Source: Methanohalophilus halophilus (GTDB taxonomy: Archaea > Halobacteriota > Methanosarcinia > Methanosarcinales > Methanosarcinaceae). Taken from it: a DNA stretch of 64,000 nucleotides. The DNA lies in the NCBI RefSeq assembly GCF_001889405.1, contig NZ_CP017921.1:1688057-1752056 (forward strand), read 5' to 3'. The translations under genes were made by a program, and so were the position numbers. Positions 26,600 to 32,788 of the stretch are shown piece after piece (position 1 is the stretch's first letter; every line of letters begins with the position of its first letter). Under the pieces are notes generated by a model, which saw only the letters and a list, made by a program, of their open reading frames with translations, ran no database searches and was not told the DNA's origin.

Positions 26600-27484
26600 A
26601 TGACTGAAAAAAGACATAGCATTGATGTTAGTTTCCTGAAGGAACTTGACAGGTTTTCCTTTATGGTGCGCAAGCGAGTATCCAGTGTGTACGCCGGTAG
26701 CCGTCGCTCAATCCACAGTGGAAAAGGACTGGATACCAGAGGATACAGGGAGTATCATTGGGGAGATGAACCAAGGACCATTGACTGGAATGCCTATGCA
26801 CGTACTGAAAAACTCTATGTAAGGGAATTTGAGGAAAGTAAATCCCTGACAAACCATATCCTGCTGGATGCAAGCAACAGTATGGAATATTCATCTGAAG
26901 GGCCTACCAAATTCGAATATGGAGCGATGCTTGCTATCGGATTTGCTTATCTTGTAACAAAAGATAATGACAAATTCGCAATTTCGACCTTTGCCACCGA
27001 TGTAAGTTTCAGCCAGCCAAAACGTGGCAGGAAATACCTTCTCAGGGCTATCGACAGACTGGCAGAAGCAGAAACCGGGGGCAAGACATCTATTGAAGAA
27101 TGTGTAAAACAATACGAAAAAGCTATACATTCACGCTCCCTTGTAATAATAATTTCTGACTTCCTGGATGACCCCAAATCCATTGAATCCGCTATATACA
27201 GGCTTTCCGCTCATGAACTCATTGTGATACAGTTAATGGATAAAACTGAAAAGGATCTGCAAATAGACGGTCTGGCAAAATTGACTGATATGGAAAGTGG
27301 TGAAGAATTGCAAACCTATGTCAGCAAGAATTTCCAGAAGAGCTATCAGGAATTGCTCAACGAGCATGTCTACAGGATACAGGAAGTCTGTGACCATACA
27401 GGAGCAGACTTTTACCAGTTCTCAACCGATAAACCGATCTTTGAGGCTTTCCTTGAAACACTAAACAGCAGGAGGCGATGGTAA
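26600..27484 (+). CDS. DUF58 protein with VWA-like fold
   Basis: A 294-residue soluble protein. It contains the DUF58 signature RGYREYHWGDEPRTIDWNAY near residue 45 and a MIDAS-like DASNS (LLDASNSMEYS) that fits metal-dependent adhesion sites. It follows moxR by 31 bases and overlaps the next gene by 7 bases. It is expected to be the substrate or partner of the MoxR ATPase. Confidence 0.94.
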   Translation: MTEKRHSIDVSFLKELDRFSFMVRKRVSSVYAGSRRSIHSGKGLDTRGYREYHWGDEPRTIDWNAYARTEKLYVREFEESKSLTNHILLDASNSMEYSSEGPTKFEYGAMLAIGFAYLVTKDNDKFAISTFATDVSFSQPKRGRKYLLRAIDRLAEAETGGKTSIEECVKQYEKAIHSRSLVIIISDFLDDPKSIESAIYRLSAHELIVIQLMDKTEKDLQIDGLAKLTDMESGEELQTYVSKNFQKSYQELLNEHVYRIQEVCDHTGADFYQFSTDKPIFEAFLETLNSRRRW

Positions 27485-29379
27485 TACCTTTTGATAACAC
27501 AACGGCCCTTGCCGCTCTTGCAAGTGTGATCCCTTTAATAATAATTTATCTTCTCAGGCCCAAACCCGTAAAGCTCAGTATACCCTCCCTGATGTTTTTA
27601 ATGCAGGTGGAAAAGCAGAAAAAACGTTTTTCATCAATCAGGAAACTGCTGAAGGATCCATTGTTTCTTATCCAGCTGCTTGTACTTATACTGCTTTCCA
27701 CCGCTGCAGCAGCGCCATTTTATACCTCTCAGGAAGATCTGAGTGATGAACATACTGTAATTGTCATTGACGCCTCCGCAAGTATGCAGGCAGGTAATCG
27801 GTTTGATGATGCAACACGCCTGGCCGGGGGATATCTCAGCAAGAAGAACAGTGTAATACTGGCTAAAAGCAGTCCGGAAATTGTTGTTGAGAACACAGGT
27901 TCATCGCAAGCATCCGATGCACTTGACAGTATCGAACCTACTGCCACAGTTGCTGACCTTTCAGGGGCAATGTCTGAAGGTATGAGACTGCTTTCACAGA
28001 GAGGCGGTACAATGGTTGTGATATCCGATTTTGCCAGCTGGGAAGGAGAAGATCCGGTATCTACAAAACAACTTGCCCAGTCCTATGGAATTGATACTGC
28101 CTTTGTTGATGTAAGCTCAGCAGTGGGCAATGTGGGAATCATAGATGGCTGGATAGACACTGAAGACGGTAATTACGTTTATACCTGTGTTGTCAAGAAT
28201 TATAATGACTTTACAGAAAGGGTTGATATAGAAATTGCAAACCCGGCCGGTTCAGTAAAGCGCTCTCTTAATGTGGGGCCCTCGGATACGGCCCAGTTTC
28301 GTGTGAATCCCTTATCTTCCGGTATTACTTCGGTAACAATTGCAGATGAGGATACTTTGCCTGCGGACAACAATGCATATGTTGTAATTCCAACCCAATC
28401 GGATACAAAGACCCTGTTTGTTTCTGATGAGGAAAAATTACCATCAAAGATTGCTCTCTCGACCTTGGCTTCTGTGGATATTTCTACGGCCGAAGGGATT
28501 CCTTCTTCAACCGATGATTACAGGATAATGGTCATCGGGTTGAAAAACCGCTCCCTTACATCCAGTGAGGTGGAAAGACTTGACGGTTTCCTAAACAATG
28601 GTGGCCGGGTAGTGGTTGTGGCCAGCCAGATGCTTACAGGCGGCAATGCCACAGAACAATTCCAGAGTATGCTTCCGGTTATACCCGGTAATGTAGCTGA
28701 ACCACAGGATATTCTGGGTATCGATCTGGAAGTTGTCCAGTCCTCAAGCCTGACCGATGACGTGAAATTCAACGAGATTGCCATGTACAGGTATCTCAAT
28801 GCCACACCACGCAATGATGCGACCGTGCTGGTTGCGACTGAGCAGGGAGATCCTTTACTTGCTCACTGGTCTGTGGGAGACGGGACATTGGTATATTTCG
28901 GCTTCAATGATGATCTGGGCGACCCCAATGATGAACTCGATAATCCCTGGAACAATTTCCACAACCTGCCCGAATATCCGGTGCTCTGGGCAAAACTTAC
29001 AGCCTGGCTCGGTGGCAGCGGTGATATAAGCGACTATAATCTGGAGACGGGGGATATAACCTCTCTTGCCCGGGAAATGACAGTACAGACACCCACCGGT
29101 ACAATAACCACACAGAAGGTTTTGTTCGAGCAGGTAGGGACATATAAGATCGGAGGACGCACCGTGGCGGTCAACCTGTACAGTGACCGGGAATCGGATA
29201 CTACCAGGCAAGGATCGGAGGTAATGGAACGTGTTTCTGACCAGAACAGGGACAGCCCTGATATCGTCCGTCAGGATAGTTATGAGGCAAAGAACTATCT
29301 GGACAATTACCTGATAATGCTGGCTATACTACTGGCAATACTTGAAATCCTGATAATACGCAACCGGGGTGAACTGTGA
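27478..29379 (+). CDS. BatA-type VWA membrane protein
   Basis: A 633-residue protein with an N-terminal BatA segment (ALASVIPLIIIYLLRPKP, then LSIPSLMFL), a second helix near residue 60-80, a VWA domain with MIDAS DASAS (IVIDASASMQAG, about residue 98), a long beta-rich extracellular part and a C-terminal helix (residues 605-628). MVVISDF gives the later VWA strand. It overlaps both flanking genes, which suggests tight coupling. The role in cell-envelope maintenance is inferred from bacterial Bat systems. Confidence 0.92.
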   Translation: MVIPFDNTTALAALASVIPLIIIYLLRPKPVKLSIPSLMFLMQVEKQKKRFSSIRKLLKDPLFLIQLLVLILLSTAAAAPFYTSQEDLSDEHTVIVIDASASMQAGNRFDDATRLAGGYLSKKNSVILAKSSPEIVVENTGSSQASDALDSIEPTATVADLSGAMSEGMRLLSQRGGTMVVISDFASWEGEDPVSTKQLAQSYGIDTAFVDVSSAVGNVGIIDGWIDTEDGNYVYTCVVKNYNDFTERVDIEIANPAGSVKRSLNVGPSDTAQFRVNPLSSGITSVTIADEDTLPADNNAYVVIPTQSDTKTLFVSDEEKLPSKIALSTLASVDISTAEGIPSSTDDYRIMVIGLKNRSLTSSEVERLDGFLNNGGRVVVVASQMLTGGNATEQFQSMLPVIPGNVAEPQDILGIDLEVVQSSSLTDDVKFNEIAMYRYLNATPRNDATVLVATEQGDPLLAHWSVGDGTLVYFGFNDDLGDPNDELDNPWNNFHNLPEYPVLWAKLTAWLGGSGDISDYNLETGDITSLAREMTVQTPTGTITTQKVLFEQVGTYKIGGRTVAVNLYSDRESDTTRQGSEVMERVSDQNRDSPDIVRQDSYEAKNYLDNYLIMLAILLAILEILIIRNRGEL

Positions 29380-31811
29380 TGCTTTCCTTTGAACAACCCA
29401 TTATACTTGCATTTATATTACCCGTGCTGGCAGGAGCTCTATACCTTATGCTTAAGGGTGGTAACAAAAAATTGCTCATTTCCAGGGCAATTGTCCTGTC
29501 CCTGTTGATAGTTGCCATTGCTTCTCCCTTTACGCTGGTAAGCCAGGTAACAGAGCAGGAAAACCCGCAACTTGTGATTATTTCGGATGAAACCAATAGT
29601 ATGCAGCTCTTTGAAAAAGGAGTGGCCGATGAACTCTATGAAAGCCTTACCACCAAAACCCCGACCAGTCTTGTCAGGTTGACAGGAGATAGAACCGCCC
29701 TGGGGGATGCTGTGGTGCAGTATGCCAGCAGTGAGAACCAGGTCGTGTTGGTGACTGACGGGAACAATAACTATGGTAAAAACCTTGAAGAAGGGCTGGA
29801 TTTTGCACAAAATATAGGTTCCACTGTATATGCAGTTACACCGGAACTTGAATCAAACGATCTCAATATTCAGGTAAAAGGTGACAAGACCGCAGTAAAA
29901 GGGAATGAATACCGGTTTGAAATAATTGTTTCACAGGCTGAAGAAGTACCTGTGGAATATACTTTCAAGGCCTCTGCGGATGATAAATTGATACGCAGCG
30001 GCACCTACACACAGAGCAGCAGGCAACGCAGCTATCAAATCCCTTATAAATTCAATGATCTGGGTGCACATGAGATCAAAATTGAACTGAGCACACAGGC
30101 AGATGAAGCCGATGATATCAATAACGAGTTCCTTAAATCGGTTTACGTGGTACCAAAACCCAAAGTAAAGTACATAACTGATGAACCGGATTCGCCTCTC
30201 TCCAATATCCTATACAACCTTTATGACACCTCTACCAATTCCAATATATCTGATCTGGATTCACAAAAAGCTGTGGTAATCGATAATATACCCGGCAACA
30301 GGATATCCGAATCAGATGTGGCAGTTCTGAAGCAATATATATCCAATGGAGGAGGAGTTGTTGTTACCGGAGGGGAGCGCTCTTACGAATACGGGGATTA
30401 CCTGAATTCTTCAATTGAAGATATATTACCGGTAACTTCCGAACCGATGCCTGGAGAGGGGGGGAGACAGATTGTCTTAGTGCTTGATATTTCTCCGAGT
30501 ACTGAAAAGCACGACACTCTTTCAGAGATACTGGGTAATGCAATATATCTGGTCCAGAAGGAGGAACTAAGAGGGGCCTACATGGGGATCATAGCTTTTG
30601 GTAAGGAAGGGCATGATGTTTCTGGTGGGCTGAAGTATCTTGGTACAACGGGTAATCGGGAATCACTGGAAGAAGAAATGCGTCAATTGAGGCCAAGTAT
30701 CACCAGTGAGACATTGCTACATGAAGGCCTTGAAGTTGCACAGGAATGGCTTAATACAAAAACTGGGACATTGGATCTAGTAATAATCTCTGACGGAGGT
30801 ATAGAAGATTCCTATGAAGAAAGCCTAAAGATCGCCTCAGACCTGAAGGAAGATAATGTGAACTTCTATTTTGTTCATATTCGGTCTTCAGCCCCCTCCC
30901 AGCAAGATGAGTTAGGTAATGTATATGCTAAAAATCTTGTTGAAAATGTAGAAGGTTCAACCAATAATTACTTCAAATTGGATGCAGGGCAACGGGCCAA
31001 TATTATCTCAGATGAATCTATTGAACCACCACCATCAAATGAAAGTGAATCTACTTCATCTTATCAACTTTCCGAATCCAATCCATCACATTTCATAACC
31101 CAGAACTCAAATGTGAAAGCAAATATAACCGGCTACAATGATGTCACTCCAAAACCCGGAGCCAACAGGCTTGTTGATGCTTCGAATAAACCTGTTATAA
31201 CCACATGGAGATACGGACTTGGGAGAGTTGCTTCGATCACCACAGATAATGGCAAGGATGGAGGCTGGAGTTCACAGATGTATTCCGGTAACAACTCACA
31301 GTTGATATCAGCAACCTTAAATTGGGCTATAGCCAACCCACAGCCCGAAGAAGGTGCGGTTGTGGAAGCACCGGACACATGGTTCGGGCTACCTGCAACG
31401 ATTACTCTTACAATGTATGATGAGAAAGTTCCGGAACTTACATACAGGGGCGATGAACTGGAACTGGCTTTTGTGGGGAAAAACACCTATGAAGCCCAGA
31501 TATTTCCGAAAACAATCGGGATGCATTATGTGAGTGGTTATCCAATTGCTGTGAATTATGCCATTGAGTACAGGGACGTTGGTCTTAATGAAGAATTACC
31601 TTCTCTTATTGCCGGGAATGGCGGTAAGGCCTACAGCCAAAAGGAAGCCAGGGCAAATCTCCTTACCGATGCCCGGCAGAACTCCCTCCAGAGTCGCATG
31701 GAGCCTGTCAGCTGGAAGATGTATTTCATCCTGGCTGCCCTGTTGCTTTTCCTGGGAGAAGTAATGCTTCGTCGCAGTCTGGAGATTATCGAATCAAGAA
31801 AGCAAGAGTGA
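29376..31811 (+). CDS. Large VWA-type membrane protein, 811 aa
   Basis: The protein has an N-terminal pair of membrane helices (residues 8-26 and 33-52), a first VWA-like segment with DETNS (VIISDETNSMQ), a glutamine-amidotransferase-like stretch (residues 275-350: GGGVVVTGGERS), and a true VWA domain with MIDAS DISPS (VLVLDISPSTEK, about residue 367). The C-terminal third has WRYGLGRVASIT and a last helix (785-805). It closes the operon, overlaps the BatA-type gene by 4 bases and is followed by a terminator hairpin. It is probably an outer-face partner of the MoxR complex. Confidence 0.9.
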   Translation: MMLSFEQPIILAFILPVLAGALYLMLKGGNKKLLISRAIVLSLLIVAIASPFTLVSQVTEQENPQLVIISDETNSMQLFEKGVADELYESLTTKTPTSLVRLTGDRTALGDAVVQYASSENQVVLVTDGNNNYGKNLEEGLDFAQNIGSTVYAVTPELESNDLNIQVKGDKTAVKGNEYRFEIIVSQAEEVPVEYTFKASADDKLIRSGTYTQSSRQRSYQIPYKFNDLGAHEIKIELSTQADEADDINNEFLKSVYVVPKPKVKYITDEPDSPLSNILYNLYDTSTNSNISDLDSQKAVVIDNIPGNRISESDVAVLKQYISNGGGVVVTGGERSYEYGDYLNSSIEDILPVTSEPMPGEGGRQIVLVLDISPSTEKHDTLSEILGNAIYLVQKEELRGAYMGIIAFGKEGHDVSGGLKYLGTTGNRESLEEEMRQLRPSITSETLLHEGLEVAQEWLNTKTGTLDLVIISDGGIEDSYEESLKIASDLKEDNVNFYFVHIRSSAPSQQDELGNVYAKNLVENVEGSTNNYFKLDAGQRANIISDESIEPPPSNESESTSSYQLSESNPSHFITQNSNVKANITGYNDVTPKPGANRLVDASNKPVITTWRYGLGRVASITTDNGKDGGWSSQMYSGNNSQLISATLNWAIANPQPEEGAVVEAPDTWFGLPATITLTMYDEKVPELTYRGDELELAFVGKNTYEAQIFPKTIGMHYVSGYPIAVNYAIEYRDVGLNEELPSLIAGNGGKAYSQKEARANLLTDARQNSLQSRMEPVSWKMYFILAALLLFLGEVMLRRSLEIIESRKQE

Positions 31812-31825
31812 TATAAATCATTAAT

Positions 31826-31849
31826 AAGGCTTTGAAATTTTTAAGCCTT
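31826..31849 (+). terminator. Terminator hairpin of the VWA operon
   Basis: AAGGCTT and AAGCCTT (31826-31832 and 31843-31849) pair with a 10-base loop ending in TTTTT. It starts 14 bases after the stop codon of the last VWA gene. Confidence 0.55.
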
Positions 31850-31917
31850 TACAAATATCAGAAGTGTTTATCGGATTTTAAGCCGGTTGTGTTATATTTG
31901 TCCATGAGAATGTAGGA

Positions 31918-32035
31918 ATTGTCCGGGAATTGTGCAGCATTGTTCCGGGCTGGATCAGCCGAGTTGGGGGACTACGGCTGATACATGGAGTGGGGGTTAA
32001 ATGAGAACATGGTTGGGCATCCATGTTCTCAATCT
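31918..32035 (+). ncRNA. Structured small RNA candidate A
   Basis: There is no credible coding frame here, but the structure is dense: CCGGGAA/TTCCGG (31923-31948), ATCAGCCG/CGGCTGAT (31954-31961 with 31975-31982) enclosing a TTGGGGG loop, then a GTGGGGG stretch (31990-31996) and a perfect 11-bp hairpin TGAGAACATGG/CCATGTTCTCA (32002-32012 with 32021-32031, 8-base loop) followed by a T-containing tail. A TATA-like GTTATATT at 31891-31898 predicts a start near 31920, just before the first stem. The same layout recurs 360 bases downstream. It resembles small regulatory RNAs of methanogens in size and form only. Confidence 0.55.
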
Positions 32036-32279
32036 ACTTTTGGTTTATCGCAACTAAATATCAACTATTTTTCAAATCTAACTTCTAAAAAATCCAAAAG
32101 GTTTAAATGTTACAGACATGTTGGTCTATATACAATATCAATATTGCCTGTAAGCTATTTTCGGATAAGTATTTCCTACGGTGAATTTAATATCTCTTTG
32201 TAATTTTCAATGGGACTATAATATTATATTGATATCTAAAAATCAAGAGAGGTTATGTTATATACCAAAGCATCTGATT
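32036..32279 (+). other. Spacer between the two RNA candidates
   Basis: This AT-rich stretch has no believable gene. It contains a TATA-like CTATATAC at 32126-32133 with no obvious product and the likely promoter of RNA B at its end. Confidence 0.5.
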
Positions 32280-32402
32280 AGGTTATGTGGTGATTGGGAG
32301 AAAACTTCTCTCAACATAACCTGACGGGGTGGGACCCGAGCGGGTTTATAATCGGTGGGGTACGATAATGAAGGCATAGGAAAGGATACCTATGCCTTCT
32401 CT
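32280..32402 (+). ncRNA. Structured small RNA candidate B, similar to A
   Basis: The stems are AGGTTATGT/ACATAACCT (32280-32288 with 32314-32322) with an inner GGGAGA/TCTCTC stem, CGGG/CCCG (32325-32338) with loop GTGGGA, ATCG/CGAT (32351-32366) with loop GTGGGGTA, and a perfect 11-bp hairpin GAAGGCATAGG/CCTATGCCTTC (32370-32380 with 32389-32399, 8-base loop). A TATA-like TTATATAC lies at 32258-32265 and another, ATTATATT, at 32223-32230. The first would start the RNA near 32285, the second near 32253, where AGGTTATGT also occurs as a direct repeat. It lies 60 bases ahead of the SMR gene, so a leader role is also possible. Confidence 0.52.
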
Positions 32403-32464
32403 ATTAATCCTTATGCACTTAGAGGAATGAACCTATTTATAAAGTATAACTACAAAATAGAATT

Positions 32465-32788
32465 ATGAGTTATATCTATCTGATAGGAGCCATAATTTTT
32501 GAAGTGTTTGGCACCACCTGCATGAAATTATCTGATGGCTTTTCCAATATATTGCCCTCTATAGGGATTTTCCTGTTTTATGGTATCAGCTTTGCCCTGT
32601 TTACTATTGCCCTAAAAGAAATAGATGTAAGCATAGCTTATGCAATCTGGGCCGGAATGGGGACTGCAATGATCACAGCTATTGGTATCTTCTGGTTCAA
32701 AGAGCCTGCCACGGCAGTAAAAATGGTATCCATAATACTTGTGGTAATTGGAGTGGTAGGCCTCAATCTAAATTGGGGAGGACATTAA
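32465..32788 (+). CDS. Small multidrug resistance (SMR) family transporter
   Basis: A 107-residue protein with four membrane helices and SMR landmarks: YLIGAIIFEVFGTTCMKLSD with the essential Glu in TM1, IDVSIAYAIWAGMGT in TM3 and WFKEPATAVKMVSI before TM4. These proteins export cationic drugs, quaternary amines or guanidinium as proton antiporters. No ribosome site is obvious before the ATG. A TATA-like TTTATAAAG near 32436-32444 would give a very short leader. It converges on argG with 14 bases between stops. Confidence 0.93.
   Translation: MSYIYLIGAIIFEVFGTTCMKLSDGFSNILPSIGIFLFYGISFALFTIALKEIDVSIAYAIWAGMGTAMITAIGIFWFKEPATAVKMVSIILVVIGVVGLNLNWGGH

Follow-up and report, generated by a model that had tools for sequence, protein, structure and literature searches.

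The window, that is, the whole 64,000-nucleotide stretch of DNA analyzed here, belongs to a complete Methanohalophilus genome (2,022,959 bp) and contains a 650-bp gap bounded on the left by a VWA gene, which ends at 31811, and on the right by an SMR gene, which starts at 32465. Two structured units, A and B, are both located in this gap, with the 3′ hairpin of each and the GTGGGG stretches (31990 and 32355) lying exactly where the original prediction had placed them. The gap had also been considered to be without a credible ORF, and this view holds up: an 18-codon frame at the A hairpin fails in a comparison of substitutions and end points across species, with the differences in the conserved part all being amino-acid replacements and the end position varying. 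A DUF58/VWA-domain gene cluster lies directly 5′ of the two RNAs (26600–31811 of the window), and no functional link between this cluster and the RNAs was found.

All features of A and B described below lie on the plus strand. A TATA-like element had been proposed to precede each unit, and is indeed present in both cases, namely TTATATTT at 31892–31899 for A, conserved between species, and TTATATA at 32258–32264 for B, recognized by interspecies comparison, each ~28–33 nt 5′ of hairpin 1. Farther upstream of A, an AT-rich element, TTGAAATTTTTAA (31832–31844), is shared with its paralogs C and D, ~85–94 nt before hairpin 1, though its significance is only suggestive. The likely transcript of A (31919–32040), supported by fold, conservation, a covariance model, and a leave-one-out profile, consists of hairpin 1 (31921–31950), with a GCAGCA loop motif common to C and D; hairpin 2 (31954–31982), with a GGGG loop; a G-rich core, GGAGTGGGGG (31987–31996), showing 10-nt complementarity to the loop CCCCCACTCC of a second RNA family, type II; and hairpin 3 (32002–32031), formed by TGAGAACATGG and CCATGTTCTCA, with 11 bp and an 8-nt loop. 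Interspecies conservation stops at an oligo-T run (32038–32041), and CTACTTTT at this point is the probable terminator of A. No conserved sequence was seen 3′ of A in the interspecies comparison that could serve as a minus-strand promoter, so the transcript of A most likely runs rightward. In genomes G007 and G004, the core of A reads GGAGTGGAGG, and one pair with the type II loop is lost.

Unit B, a divergent member of the family described below, is supported by fold, conservation, and covariance models and has a likely transcript at 32287–32404. It contains hairpin 2 (ACCCGAGCGGGT, 32334–32345), a core, GGTGGGGTACGA (32354–32365), able to form a duplex with the type II loop GTACCCC(C)AC in which a single C is bulged, and hairpin 3 (32370–32399; GAAGGCATAGG/CCTATGCCTTC, 11 bp and an 8-nt loop). 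Because the long outer first stem of B (AGGTTATGT/ACATAACCT) is not conserved, and is partly located 5′ of the likely start, hairpin 1 of B is taken to be the inner hairpin at 32290–32317. The identical 8-nt loop size of the two 3′ hairpins, previously read as a sign of selection, is a coincidence, with loop sizes differing in other paralogs.

Folding, which had been recommended as a check on the two structures, placed both far below shuffled sequence: relative to 200 dinucleotide shuffles, the MFE z-score lay between −3.8 and −4.1 for A and between −6.2 and −6.7 for B. Among five species with an intact gap, A and B each showed 94% mean pairwise identity (gaps counted), compared with 68–73% for the spacers around them (69% between the two) and 68–75% for the other surroundings, save the promoter region of A (31886–31918; 93%). 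In a sixth species (G003), a rearrangement has its breakpoint between A and B (loci L013 and L014), so that A stays beside the VWA gene and B beside the SMR gene; A and B are thus independent units. In two divergent congeners, G002 and G006, just a few dozen bases separate the VWA and SMR genes, and neither A nor B lies between them (L124, L125), this junction being the site without A and B; in G006, two tandem SMR genes are present there.

A and B are members of type I, a family of small RNA genes, ~120 nt long and with three hairpins, that has at least seven paralogs in the main Methanohalophilus clade. Its members start ~28–33 nt after a TATA box with hairpin 1, which is followed by hairpin 2 with a G-rich loop, an unpaired GGAGUGGkGGUACGA-like core, hairpin 3, and a C/U-rich tail. 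A covariance model built from A alone gave weak, consistent extra matches in 6/6 species, which on inspection were paralogs, and the motif GAGTGG-n(0-2)-GGTAYGA yielded ~20 matches in Methanohalophilus versus 0 in the control. A joint covariance model (R3) identified seven copies, A–G, in the host genome; copy G, outside the training set, scored E = 1.1e-10, and A and B, both in training, scored 76.5 and 51.7 bits, respectively, with A and B each matched on the same strand and in the order hairpin 2, core, hairpin 3. With leave-one-out sequence profiles, recovery succeeded for A, C, D, and E (E between 3.6e-8 and 1e-12), barely for F, and not for B. The A-only covariance model reached B orthologues with a best E of 0.011, and the B-only model reached E paralogs at E = 4e-5 to 1e-3, with a weaker match at 0.09. 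The earlier proposal of paralogous structured small RNAs is thus borne out for A by the profile from whose training it was left out (E = 3.6e-8) and for B by covariance only, the membership of B resting on covariance models and layout and not on a leave-one-out sequence profile.

Across the paralogs, the core and layout are kept and the stems vary. In hairpins 2 and 3, 8/17 pairs showed two-sided compensatory changes among 26 distinct sequences, and 90.9% of cells in the type I alignment were able to pair, compared with 34–47% for slid partners. The compensatory changes anticipated in the original prediction were therefore found between paralogs but not among the six orthologues of each unit, in which no two-sided pair change was detected. 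No Rfam match was found in the window, with nothing above the gathering threshold near A or B at E ≤ 5; nor did Rfam match the C–F loci, and a tRNA/tmRNA search yielded none. Type I was not found outside Methanohalophilus, the genus Methanolobus included: the covariance models R1, R2, and R3 gave weak matches only, and those matches of R3 and of the sequence pattern that were inspected were either coding sequence or unconvincing. An origin from a mobile element was rejected, since none of the ORFs in the vicinity of C, E, and F was seen to be a transposase; at D, an integrase-like ORF is found ~5.7 kb away. In the host genome, paralog F carries a second core-like stretch, GAGAGTGGTGGGTATGA, in the loop of hairpin 1 (L069:1490–1530). 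At another locus (L050, G004:C17:206251), an 8-bp hairpin and a TACCCC complementary to GAGTGGGGTACGA come after that sequence, with hairpins 1 and 2 absent, and this locus may be a minimal relative.

The type II family was first met in a search for complements of the type I core with at most one mismatch, several intergenic complements of which fell in a second repeated structure. This structure has a ~10-bp stem and a large loop containing (GU)ACCCCCACUCCCC, and is located ~30 nt 3′ of a TATA box on the C-rich strand. Further loci were collected with an exact family-wide motif of the G-strand, and then with a loop-independent pattern (TATATAC and the stem TGAGCGG...CCGCTCA), which gave 61 matches versus 0 in the control, in 44/112 Methanosarcinaceae genomes of 7 genera. 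The loop was ACCCCCACTCCCC or a close variant in nearly all 61 matches, even with the loop left unspecified in the pattern. Because a TATA-like box is present on the C-rich strand in 28/28 aligned loci at near-constant spacing (TATATAC in nearly all), the C-rich strand would be the type II transcript; an upstream TATA on the opposite strand is clear mainly within Methanohalophilus. The type II RNA most likely forms a hairpin, is ~75 nt long, and has its C-rich loop open (90–96% unpaired in predicted folds). At these loci, Rfam matched only a tRNA neighbor.

The host genome contains type II loci at G000:C1 999357 (L204), 1018381 (L183), 1329906 (L230), 1593317 (L188), and 1613797 (L232). Type II is also present in G002 and G006, where A and B are missing from the VWA–SMR junction and no type I match is confident. 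A Methanolobus genome contains further copies that share the loop motif although their stem sequences are unrelated; the Methanolobus-type copies are L222, L225, L228, L231, L233, L234, and L235 (G079), and L226 and L229 (G092). Several of these have entirely different stems, and in some the C-rich motif occurs two or three times within the loop. In a Methanococcoides-like genus (g3), tandem copies lie ~200–700 bp apart (L195/L181, L197/L182, L199, L200). Carriers of type II are many, and the clade to which type I is restricted lies nested among them, as expected of a later antagonist; type II is most likely the older family and type I the newly evolved one.

The type II loop is complementary to the core of each of the seven type I RNAs over ~9–13 bp, complementarity at this length being partly selected, as type II was met by a complement search. 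The antisense strand of type II also resembles type I (GGTGGTATGAG before the stem), and the shared sequence could instead stem from common descent. Independent of this selection, the matches form a definable RNA family, the complementary stretch is the open loop, and the promoter makes that loop C-rich. The energy of the duplexes formed by the loop, summed over all seven type I RNAs, was calculated to be −168.7 kcal/mol, compared with −121.1 (sd 9.6) for 1000 permuted loops, 0/1000 of which were as strong; with the core alone, the corresponding result was 0/2000 permutations. Pairing is stronger for the Methanohalophilus loop (GUAC..., −167.4) than for that of Methanolobus (−152.1). In predicted folds, weak pairing takes up about half of the type I core. 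Type I copy G and a type II copy are divergent and ~200 nt apart (G000:1613513–1613889), and in G007 type I copy E and a type II-like copy are divergent neighbors.

With respect to targets other than type II, complements of the core (12 nt, at most one mismatch) numbered 15 and 18 in two genomes, versus 13 and 15 in the controls, showing no enrichment. The originally proposed pairing of the G-rich segments with C-rich targets is partly supported, by the complementarity of the conserved core to the type II loop but not by a genome-wide excess of complements. The 6-mers targeted by the type II loop occurred before the starts of 3/49 genes in the window, compared with 1 in the control, and the count for GGAG alone (8 vs 2) was that expected for ordinary Shine–Dalgarno sites. 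The C-rich loop as a general anti-Shine–Dalgarno element was rejected on this basis, and the anti-ribosomal-site mechanism suggested earlier finds no support among the window genes.

These findings bear on several ways of reading the type I RNAs. They might act as independent trans-acting sRNAs on C-rich mRNA sites, with the match to type II being incidental; multiple copies, a structured form, and a partly exposed G-rich core would suit such a role, as would the precedent of M. mazei sRNA162, which masks a ribosome binding site via a single-stranded linker (PMC3510493). This reading is nonetheless unlikely, given that core complements are near control level and that type II loci account for several of those in intergenic DNA. 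The conservation of core and layout across paralogs while stems change would also be compatible with the binding of a protein through the core and G-rich loops, for sequestration or as an RNP scaffold, and the G-strand of type II loci has GGTGGTATGAG before the stem and then a hairpin, in the same order as in type I, so that the resemblance could reflect common descent. Judged by its conserved promoter, however, type II is transcribed as the C-rich strand, and the type II RNA itself would then lack the core; a protein-binding role of this kind appears improbable.

The positions of B and A would allow B to be a cis-regulatory leader of the SMR gene and A to serve the VWA operon as its trailer or terminator, and some SMR genes are preceded by guanidine riboswitches. 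The SMR gene has its own conserved TATA box, however, ~26 nt 5′ of its ATG, and no Rfam riboswitch was matched in its leader even at E ≤ 5, results by which an SMR-linked guanidine riboswitch was rejected. Furthermore, paralogs C–F adjoin unrelated genes, A has its own conserved TATA box, and the G003 rearrangement separates A from B, making a leader or trailer function very unlikely. Scarcely any probability attaches to the units encoding short peptides: an NTG codon does lie ~10 nt after the GGAG-like core in each, at Shine–Dalgarno-like spacing in the aligned members, but the frames read from the sequences comprise only 3–5 codons in B, C, and F, and peptide coding was rejected on the basis of the replacement substitutions in the conserved part of A and the differing frame ends.

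The favored reading, to which we give about an even chance, is that A and B encode sRNAs and that the G-rich core of these would pair with the C-loop sRNAs of type II, as a decoy or antagonist. The families, their structures, their promoters, and the complementarity are results of computation; that the genes are transcribed, that the RNAs pair inside cells, and which way the effect runs are inferred. Each type I gene would be transcribed rightward from its own TATA box, and the linker before hairpin 3 (GGAGUGG-GGUAC) would base-pair with the exposed C-rich loop of type II (GUACCCCCACUCCCC). Type I RNAs would then, most likely, titrate or antagonize type II sRNAs, acting as a decoy or an anti-sRNA, with hairpins 1 and 3 contributing to stability and termination. 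A wider archaeal RNA-versus-RNA network, with the type II sRNAs of Methanosarcinaceae opposed by at least seven type I decoys in one Methanohalophilus clade, is proposed more tentatively, its probability being put somewhat short of even.

Overall, two multi-copy RNA families, neither of them in Rfam, have a concrete predicted pairing site of ~9–13 bp, and the type II RNAs are pointed to as a conserved class across Methanosarcinaceae. To our knowledge, partners have been identified for very few sRNAs of Archaea. Should the predicted pairing prove real, type I would constitute a dedicated sRNA decoy system in Archaea, none of which was found in a limited literature search.

Among known systems, the closest experimental lead is provided by Methanolobus psychrophilus R15, for which nine highly conserved sRNAs were described that are induced by cold and have a “cold box” upstream (PMC5378194). 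Like type I and type II, these are multi-copy, conserved, intergenic RNAs of Methanosarcinaceae with a shared upstream element, but type I was not found in the genus Methanolobus. The sRNA162/sRNA171 pair of M. mazei resembles type I in being paralogous, with three stem-loops and a single-stranded base-pairing linker; homologues of the pair are reported only in Methanosarcina, and the linker is the variable part in sRNA162/sRNA171 but the conserved part in type I (PMC3510493). Staphylococcal C-rich-loop sRNAs such as IsrR expose, as type II does, C-rich motifs in a hairpin loop, and these motifs bind G-rich Shine–Dalgarno sites (PMC9410917); type II differs in that matches to its loop before starts are not clearly enriched in the window, and in belonging to another domain of life. 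The mechanism proposed for type I is akin to that of bacterial sponge RNAs, in which an RNA captures sRNAs through a matching seed, with the difference that type I is archaeal, is multi-copy, and is encoded by dedicated genes, its sponge role being a predicted one.
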